NCBI GenBank assembly: GCA_008802785.1
Contig: VUYT01000036.1
Span: 62,001 to 126,000, forward strand
Direction: 5' to 3'
DNA: 64,000 nt
Source of the DNA: Symmetrospora coprosmae
Lineage: Eukaryota > Basidiomycota > Cystobasidiomycetes > Symmetrosporaceae
In this document: in pieces, positions 43,340 through 45,720 of the stretch
How positions within the stretch are numbered: position 1 is the first letter of the stretch
Layout: every line of letters starts with the position of its first letter
The notes under the pieces: generated by a model
What the model saw: only the letters and a program-made list of their open reading frames with translations
What the model was told of the DNA's origin: nothing
The model's database searches: none
Program-made: the position numbers and the translations under genes

Positions 43340-45720
43340 TTAGCGAACCGATAGTGGAGGCTGGCAGAGCGGTATCCGTAGGACATCAAAGCGATCCGCC
43401 CTGAACGCCTCTAGGTCGAAGGGCGGGACGTCCTCGTCTTTCGGTATCGAGTCTGCATAATCGACGCTGGCGCTACTCGCATTTGCATTCGTGCTGGTGG
43501 CGCTGCCGAACGGGACCAGAGCGGGCGCTGGGGCCTGCGTTGCCTGTTGAGGCTGGCCGAATGCACTCGCCGTGCCTTGGACGCTAGATGCCGGAGCCCC
43601 GAATGGTGTATTCCCAAAGTTTGGCGCGTTGTTCGTTGATGCGGCAGGCTGCCCGAATGTAGGGGCCGATGCAGGAGCTCCAAAAGCGGATGATCCTGCC
43701 GGTGCGCCGAATGGGGCGCTAGCAGGTGGGGCCGCACTTCCAAAGGCAGACTGCCCGAACGCTGCAGATTGGCGCCGAGGCTCTGTCAGCACACTGCGGG
43801 TCATTTCCGGGTCAGAGCGTGCGCATCCATCTTACCTGGTGCCGGGGTCGCGCCACTGGTACTAGCCGTTGCCTGTCCAAACGCGCTGCCGCCGTCATTC
43901 GTAGCCGGCGTCCCAAAGGCACCAAAGCCAGAGGTCGCAGCAGGTTTTGCAGGTGTCGCTGCAGGCGAGCCGAACGCGGTCGTCTGTCCGAACGCTGAGG
44001 GAGACGCCGTCTGCCCGAAAGCGGACGATTGGCCAAACGGCTTGCTCGACGATGTGGAAGCGGCGGCCTGGCCAAAGGCTGACGGTTTGGACGGGGTGCC
44101 GAACGCTGAGTGGCCGAAGGCTGTGCTCGTCGATGCGGGCTGCCCAAACGCAGAGGGCGCGCCGAAGGCAGAACCACTTGCGCCCGGCGCGCTGGGCTGT
44201 CCGAAAGCCGACGCAGTGCCTGCGGGCTTTGCGCCGCCGAACGGCGAGGCTGGGGTGGCGGATGAGCCTGTCCGCAATGATCAGCTGATGAGCCACGCTA
44301 TCTCTGATGCAAGCGCAACGAAAGGAAAGGCTCACCGAAAGCAGAGAAACCGCCGGGGCCGCCGCTCGCACCGAACGCGGGCTTGGCCTGCGCTGGCGCG
44401 CCGAAACCGGACGGCTGGCCAAATGCAGATGCGGGTTGCTGGGTCGTCCCGAAAGCTGAGGATGATGAAGCTGCCGGGGTGCCAAATGCCCCGAAACCTC
44501 CGCCTCCACCTCCACTGCCCGGCGCCGTGCTCGATCCGAACGCGCTGCTGCTCGTCGTCTGGCCGAATGCGCTCGCAGGCTGCGTCTGACCGAAGGCACT
44601 TGTGGCGCCGAACGGTTTGGCTCCGAACGCAGAAGGCGCGGTGGTGCTGCCAAACGCGCTCGGTGCGCCGAAAGCAGCGGGTGCGCCGAAAGCACTAGCA
44701 GTCGTGCTCGGCTGGCCGAACGCGGCTGGTCTGCTGCCGAACGCTCCTACAGGTGTCGCGTTCGCGCCTGACCCGAATGGCGACGGCTTCGCAGCGACCC
44801 CGAAAGCGCTTACCGGAGCTGTGGCAGGTGCGGCTTTCTTGGACTGGCCCCGCGCGAACGTGACGGCTTGGTCGAGATTCTGCAATACGCTGCCGAAGGC
44901 CGCGTTCACCTTCTGCGCCAATGCATCTTCGGGCTGCGACGATCCCGGGCAGGTTGCAAGGTGAGTCAGCTGCGGGTCCGGTGAGTCTAGTTTTGTCTGC
45001 TCCGACCCACGTATTGCGCGGGGTTGTTGGCCTTGACCGCCCGCACGTACTCGACTCTGAGCTCTTCGGGACTGAGGTCCTGGCCAGAGACGAGGTTGGG
45101 TTCGCCCTTTGAAGGGGCGTAGCACGTGTAGGGCCAGATGGGTTTCTCGTTGAGCAGGTCGTTCCGTATGCTATTGGCACTGTGAGAGGCAAGCGCATCG
45201 TCAAGACAGGCGTAGCCCGGTTCCTCGCTGGCCACAGTGGGGCTCAGGGCTGCTTACTCGAAAGCGGCTACTGTCGCTGCAGTGCCTGCTCGTGAGGGAG
45301 CTGCTGTGCCGTGCTGGCCAGGGTGTTCACTGAGATGGGCAAGCAATGCACCACGATGTCAGATTGTGAGCGCGGTCCACGTCGACGGTGAGTACGCGGC
45401 TTCAATCGCACTTCTGCGCAATGAGATGATGCAGCTGCAGGTCAGTACGGGCGTCAACGAGCCTCGAGCATTGAGACGCAGCGTCCCTCACTTTGCAGTT
45501 GGCCCCGAACTTGCATTCTGAGCATGGCATGTATGCAGAGGGTGGTCAGCGCAGCACCATAGCAGCCTGTGTCCCTGTGCAGGCCAGCTCGCTCACGTCC
45601 CCGCAGGAAGAACTGGCAGCTGCGAGCAAGGGCAAGGGCAAGGGCGGCGGGGCAGAACAGCAGTGAGAAGCCTGTATTTCCCGCATATGCATGCTCTGCC
45701 GCTGCTGCTCACACTGCCAT
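43340..45720 (-). CDS. NUP42: Nup42-like FG nucleoporin with CCCH zinc finger
   Basis: Cytoplasmic-face nucleoporin; Nup42/NUPL2 helps Gle1 activate Dbp5 in mRNA export. Nine exons: 45720-45713 (8 nt), 45619-45597, 45517-45492, 45413-45412 (2 nt), 45329-45258, 45179-45011, 44933-44336, 44267-43836, 43782-43340; 590 residues. Spliced residues 1-24 read [24 protein letters not shown], a perfect C-x7-C-x5-C-x3-H finger (C4, C12, C18, H22). A conserved region follows (NSIRNDLLNEKPIWPYTCYA, LSPEELRVEYVRA), a coiled helix (LQNLDQAVTFARG), some 300 residues of FG repeats mostly of SAFG type, and a C-terminal DLEAFRADRFDVLRIPLCQP that resembles the Gle1-binding tail. The 5' end is extraordinarily fragmented; the fourth exon could instead be 23 nt (45434-45412), adding LHHLIAQ. 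Confidence 0.85.
45412..45413 (-). other. Putative 2-nt exon in NUP42-like gene
   Basis: On the minus strand the order is gcgcag-AA-gtgcga. Exon 3 ends AACTGCAAA (NCK, phase 0) and exon 5 begins T-GAA-CAC-CCT, so exactly two bases are missing to make N-E-H-P. The AA fits in frame and recreates the family's C-x3-H plus NEHPGQ. Flanking introns would be 78 and 82 nt, both normal here. The rival is the same donor with an acceptor 21 nt upstream. Confidence 0.55.

Follow-up and report, generated by a model that had tools for sequence, protein, structure and literature searches.

A NUP42-like gene of Symmetrospora coprosmae probably carries a coding exon of two nucleotides (AA, positions 45413-45412) that is real and mainly constitutive, a reading to which we give a probability of roughly 0.8 as judged from the sequence. 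We infer the constitutive use of this exon, and the conclusion as a whole draws jointly on the zinc-finger motif and the splice signals, not on the gene finder alone. The window analysed is the whole stretch of 64,000 nucleotides between positions 62,001 and 126,000 of contig VUYT01000036.1; all positions are those of the window, and the features of the gene are collected in Table 1.

The best explanation of the gene appears to be an orthologue of NUP42 (nucleoporin-like 2, or hCG1), in which four short introns interrupt the N-terminal CCCH finger. The predicted protein starts with this finger and continues into a long FG-rich region, seen by eye in the translation. When the C-terminus was compared with PDB sequences, three matches up to E 10 were obtained, all weak (E 0.15-0.17), two of them named nucleoporin like 2 and one NUP42. 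The finger, the FG-rich region and these C-terminal matches are the reason for calling the gene NUP42-like, and the same identity, proposed in an earlier note on this DNA, is sustained by Pfam CCCH matches above the gathering score. A single N-terminal C-x7-C-x5-C-x3-H finger is what we take to be the defining form for NUP42 / nucleoporin-like 2, the human NUP42 N-terminus, in the form we presume for it, serving for orientation. Among 58 pattern matches in viral contigs and 113 in contigs of prokaryote genomes (one scan each), no relative was confirmed. hCG1 (Nup42) is described as binding Gle1, with a suggested role in the final steps of mRNA export (PMC9132428), and Gle1 binding and an mRNA-export role are likewise attributed to NUP42 / nucleoporin-like 2 in PMC13242641. 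The protein encoded here may act with Gle1 in mRNA export.

Regarding the finger itself, the earlier note had assembled it from coding pieces of 8, 23, 26, 2 and 72 nt, and we located every one of these pieces on the minus strand, in a joined frame that is open. The interval 45412-45720 that it gave for the arrangement does hold the 8-, 23-, 26- and 2-nt pieces, while the 72-nt exon falls outside it. Specifically, residues 1-22 derive from the first four pieces and the start of the 72-nt exon, residues 4-22 forming the C-x7-C-x5-C-x3-H finger, and introns 1 to 4 are all of the GT-AG type. The 8 nt of exon 1 are its coding portion alone, and a 5' UTR may also be present. With the 2-nt exon included, the finger matches PF18044 with 25.2 bits (cut-off 24.6) and PF00642 (zf-CCCH) with 25.3 bits (cut-off 20.5); several of the muscleblind and CPSF4 fingers that were aligned show C-x3-H-P (weak matches, E 0.05-0.11).

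Table 1. Features of the NUP42-like gene in the window.
Feature	Positions	Strand	Remarks
NUP42-like gene	45720-43340	-	9 coding exons, 595 aa in model; joined frame open throughout
Exon 1, coding part, 8 nt, ATGGCAGT, start codon	45713-45720	-	Donor ATGGCAGT/gtgagc
Intron 1, 93 nt, gtgagc...tcgcag	45620-45712	-	Best branch point CTCAC, 44 nt from end
Exon 2, 23 nt, codes (V)CQFFLRG(Q)	45597-45619	-	Joined frame and Pfam
Intron 2, 79 nt	45518-45596	-	CTGAC branch point 28 nt from end
Exon 3, 26 nt, codes (Q)CKFGANCK	45492-45517	-	Donor AAA/gtgagg
Intron 3, 78 nt, gtgagg...gcgcag	45414-45491	-	CTGAC 28 nt from end; open in frame, non-coding-like codon usage
Putative exon 4, 2 nt (AA), gcgcag/AA/gtgcga; first two bases of Asn codon in CKNEHPG	45412-45413	-	Joined frame, path enumeration, finder, shuffles
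Alternative exon 4, 23 nt (acceptor ctgcag 21 nt upstream), adds LHHLIAQ in frame	45412-45434	-	Candidate isoform
Intron 4, 82 nt, weak donor gtgcga	45330-45411	-	CTGAC branch point 29 nt from end; in-frame stop if kept
Exon 5, 72 nt, starts T/GAA CAC CCT GGC (N)EHPGQ, completes finger	45258-45329	-	Joined frame
Introns 5-8 and exons 6-9 (45179-45011, 44969-44336, 44267-43836, 43761-43340)	43340-45257	-	FG-rich region and C-terminal Gle1-binding-like stretch

Where exon 7 begins is uncertain, since the finder has it start at 44933, 36 nt further on, in frame and with 12 residues fewer than the model. The preceding intron (45010-44970, minus strand) measures 41 nt in the model (TAC/gtgggt...ccgcag); in the finder's version it continues to 44934, in frame, and is 77 nt long. 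A TMEM135-like gene (45883-48370, plus strand), which matches PF15982 (TMEM135_C_rich) with 38.9 bits, is the head-to-head neighbour of the NUP42-like gene, about 160 bp separating the modelled start codons.

We enumerated the paths leading from the third Cys to EHPG, both of which were kept, allowing at most four introns, each 35 nt or longer and with either GT or GC as donor, and excluding zero-length exons. This gave 337 paths, 76 of which were open, 17 of them with GT-AG introns only. Just one of these 17 yields C-x3-H-P (two-residue spacing), namely the path through the AA exon, in agreement with the earlier statement that the 2-nt exon is the only simple route to NCKNEHPGQ. Scoring then relied on matrices for donor, acceptor and branch point built from 76 other introns of the window, and on branch-point distances taken from 31 of these. 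Among the 76 open paths, GC donors included, the AA exon ranked first by splice signals (0.9). Moreover, a self-trained gene finder, based on 88 window introns that include its own NUP42 picks, placed the AA exon unprompted.

The intervening 162 nt were also shuffled 5000 times with dinucleotides preserved and the first and last 6 bases fixed. Any usable AG-NN-GT appeared in 779 of the shuffles; in 39 its summed site scores were equal or better, in 4 a CTRAC branch point was present in addition, and in 23 NN was AA. All features together (AA, equal signals and CTRAC) were found in 0 of 5000 and, therefore, the AA exon would be more than a product of chance. In 6059 bases of other window introns AGNNGT occurs 14 times and AGAAGT not once. 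On both sides the AA is flanked by full introns with donor, branch point and acceptor, the donor that follows it (gtgcga) being weak, at the 7th percentile of window donors. The exon is required both for the frame and for the finger motif: skipping it, with the whole 162 nt removed, gives NCK-stop at once, and if intron 4 is kept the third Cys and Lys are followed by KCD-stop. The mRNA junction expected from the 2-nt model is AACTGCAAA-AA-TGAACACC.

A comparable enumeration was carried out for the 5' end. It covered 45518-46120 and allowed up to three GT-AG introns of 36-180 nt, with about 40 coding nt ahead of exon 3. In four of the 29 open paths the second Cys is preceded by another at a distance of 7-8 residues, and the path of the earlier note scored best among those four (-0.4, the next reaching -12.3). 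The best branch point of intron 1 on this path is unusually distant from the intron end. An alternative start, ATG 45530 (MPCSEC...), which is the finder's choice, outscores the model start when homology is ignored (9.4 versus 8.4); we rejected it because the resulting protein matched no Pfam family up to E 0.01.

The window has a GC content of about 60%, and the introns of the finder's set measure 40-174 nt. Pfam searches with eight large window exons gave three matches above the cut-off (SGT1, BUD22 and TFIIF-alpha) and one below (GEN1_C), the other four being without any match up to E 0.01, and ARAGORN found no tRNA in the window. The finder made errors: besides the NUP42 start at 45530 and a different acceptor for exon 7, it gave a wrong 4-nt exon in an aquaporin-like gene, whose protein matches MIP. 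We rejected this 4-nt exon in favour of a 19-nt exon, with which the MIP score rises from 117.3 to 138.9 bits; the 19-nt exon (51141-51159, plus strand) holds the second NPA motif (TGCAMNPARALGP). The finder also reported a 1-nt exon at 25012 (minus strand) and a 2-nt exon at 59134-59135 (plus strand), both with weak donors (-0.2 and -0.1), which are probably artefacts of the program's frame repair.

A different choice of acceptor would replace the AA by a 23-nt exon. According to the earlier note, this version stays in frame and puts a His at the x3 position (NCKLHHLIAQNEHPGQ), and we found both points to be correct; its expected junction is AACTGCAAA joined to CTGCATCATC. That the main transcript carries this exon (45434-45412), with LHHLIAQ after CK, NEHPG shifted and one of the new His residues as ligand, the 2-nt exon being rare or unused, seems unlikely to us. 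By the acceptor matrix alone its ctgcag is the stronger site (4.23 versus 3.75 for gcgcag), and site and codon scores with a loose distance term barely differ (8.4 for the 2-nt and 7.7 for the 23-nt exon in one calculation, 7.6 and 7.1 in another). Across nine listed Pfam families, four score higher with the 23-nt protein, zf-CCCH among them with 27.6 bits, whereas five favour the 2-nt protein, which alone passes the PF18044 cut-off (24.4 bits for the longer form). In addition, the 23-nt exon displaces the finger-closing H-P-G by 7 residues. What separates the two is branch-point spacing: the CTGAC lies 28, 28 and 29 nt from the end in introns 2, 3 and 4, but only 7 nt from ctgcag, and in 31 introns with a single CTRAC its distance to the end ranges from 15 to 55 nt. 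The 23-nt exon would thus need the TTGAC located 19 nt upstream of its acceptor. Acceptor and branch point taken together score 9.52 for the 2-nt and 6.00 for the 23-nt exon, and the path score of the latter is -3.0. The earlier note considered both isoforms possible; the longer one, with 7 more residues, may exist and is probably minor, while these scores argue against the two being equally likely.

The acceptor score chose the right acceptor in the aquaporin-like gene, where homology is clear (7.12 for the 19-nt exon versus 5.78 for the 4-nt exon), and among 62 introns in which another AG competes it gave the finder's acceptor the top rank in 47, a figure that is not independent, the matrices having been built from these introns. 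The weight of the spacing is tempered by further observations: CTRAC is missing from 37 of 76 window introns, 3 of the finder's 88 introns have their best branch point at most 9 nt from the end, and intron 5 of the NUP42-like gene itself depends on TTGAC, as the 23-nt exon would. Nine AGs are passed over in the 31 single-CTRAC introns, four of them at 3-9 nt and five at 13-26 nt from the branch point. Since the latter five are also bypassed, splicing does not always stop at the first usable AG and distance is not the sole rule.

We regard as very unlikely the view that no tiny exon exists, intron 3 being coding within one 106-nt exon (45517-45412), or the 5' structure being another one, or the gene being damaged, with a degenerate finger in each case. 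Intron 3 is open in frame over its 78 nt, a point absent from the earlier note, the path that keeps it has the second-best signal score (-0.7), and the finder preferred another start codon (45530). An intron whose length is a multiple of three and which is free of in-frame stops is found 10 times among the 82 other introns of the window. Altogether, 34 of those 82 have lengths divisible by three, and introns kept in this way could escape annotation. The codon score of intron 3 (-2.8), on the other hand, is as low in 0.7% of sampled exon stretches and as high or higher in 37.8% of the 82 introns; the total score with intron 3 kept is 3.7, against 7.6 for the 2-nt model, the H at x3 is lost and the finder passed this reading over. 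By its strong donor and its CTGAC, the segment is best read as an intron. Read-through (GTGAGGG) would be recognised by AACTGCAAA running straight into GTGAGGGACG. Less probable still, to the point of being hardly credible, is that the two bases were supplied by non-canonical splicing, at a GC donor or some other rare site, or by an indel in the assembly, and not by a separate exon bounded by GT-AG. Within the GT and GC donors covered by the enumeration, two 2-nt exons with GC donors, CT (giving KL) and CC (giving KP), likewise yield C-x3-H-P. They were rejected on score (-15.5 and -9.8 against 0.9), part of the difference being the 4.6 units charged for a GC donor, a value set by the analyst; moreover, both donors are without the G at +5 that is present in 82 of 88 window donors. 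An indel would leave unexplained the AA, both of its sites and a CTGAC at the usual distance, the combination that the shuffles never produced.

The RNA between 45258 and 45530 folds no more stably than its shuffles (z -0.12; 81 of 200 at least as stable), so that a structure bringing the sites together is unsupported. Comparing introns 1-8 with each other and with the window returned short or low-complexity matches only, and recent copying of an intron is therefore unsupported as well.

Returning to the 2-nt exon, its splicing may be accounted for by intron definition. In fungi with small introns, splice sites are probably paired across introns, and introns as short as these make such pairing probable here. 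Introns 3 and 4 are both complete GT-AG introns, each having a CTGAC of its own 28-29 nt from the end, and would each be recognisable in this way. The machinery would be unable to occupy both sides of a 2-nt exon together and, consequently, the two introns would have to be removed in succession, in either order, given that taking out one leaves the donor or acceptor of the other intact. The exon would then need no exon definition, just that the two introns are not handled simultaneously. Counting from the CTGAC of intron 3, the near AG (ctgcag, 7 nt) would be too close and be bypassed, and gcgcag (28 nt) would be used, leaving the 2-nt exon. We infer both the order of removal and the bypass, and the weak donor after AA suggests that intron 4 may be the slow step. 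A further idea, that the 2-nt exon works as a gate through which a normal finger is made only when both introns are removed, we hold to be decidedly doubtful. Skipping of AA or retention of intron 4 leads to a stop, and use of the upstream acceptor or retention of intron 3 to in-frame variants of the finger. If the gate reading were true, an mRNA-export factor would be coupled to how well the cell splices.

As far as rarity is concerned, the window contains 2.14 introns per kb of coding sequence (82 in 38,403 nt), and at random placement the next intron would by our estimate lie exactly 2 nt away for about 0.2% of introns, or about 20 per ten thousand. Four introns within 59 coding nt are more unusual than the 2-nt spacing, with a Poisson probability of 9.5e-6 at uniform density. 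Near gene starts the density is higher: in 12 other genes, the first 100 coding nt contain 5 introns. In the aquaporin model of the finder, three introns fall within 60 nt, one of them at the misplaced acceptor.

Aligners and gene finders have difficulty with exons of 1-2 nt, and conserved domains can consequently drop out of annotations. The present gene is a clean test case, as its finger is unbuildable with canonical sites unless the 2-nt exon is used, in a genome of short introns with probable intron definition. It permits asking whether a 2-nt exon arises by stepwise removal, and whether the spacing from branch point to AG decides between 2 and 23 nt.

The earlier note placed an exon of 2 nt near the lower limit for exons. 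This does not agree with the published record, in which 1-nt exons are documented (PMC4674806, PMC8831610, PMC12940212) and exons of 2-5 bp are cited for Arabidopsis, Drosophila and humans (by PMC12940212). Ultra-short exons are thus already known, and the putative 2-nt exon of the NUP42-like gene would add another case. The single-nucleotide exon of Arabidopsis APC11 (PMC4674806) is, like the one proposed here, a constitutive ultra-short coding exon between two introns; it differs in being of 1 nt, in a plant, and in being backed by transcription and GFP-fusion assays. The 1-nt microexons of land-plant APC11 and VPS55 (PMC8831610) were similarly overlooked by annotation, with splice-site strength discussed as important, but they are conserved across land plants and supported by RNA-seq and RT-PCR. 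Among fungi, the single-nucleotide exon of Fusarium CYP621A (PMC12940212) was also deduced from out-of-phase exon joints inside a conserved motif; in contrast to our case it measures 1 nt and has the support of 20 orthologues and 18 SRA reads. The switch microexon of Trichoderma Xlr2 (PMC11121469) is likewise fungal and encodes part of a zinc-binding domain, yet it is of 20 nt, is regulated by glucose and was demonstrated by RNA-seq. Finally, stwintrons, the nested introns of fungi, resemble the proposed arrangement in that two introns are taken out in succession; they leave zero exon bases in between, whereas here removal of the whole 162 nt leads to an immediate stop, and on this ground we rejected a stwintron in favour of two complete introns separated by the putative AA exon.
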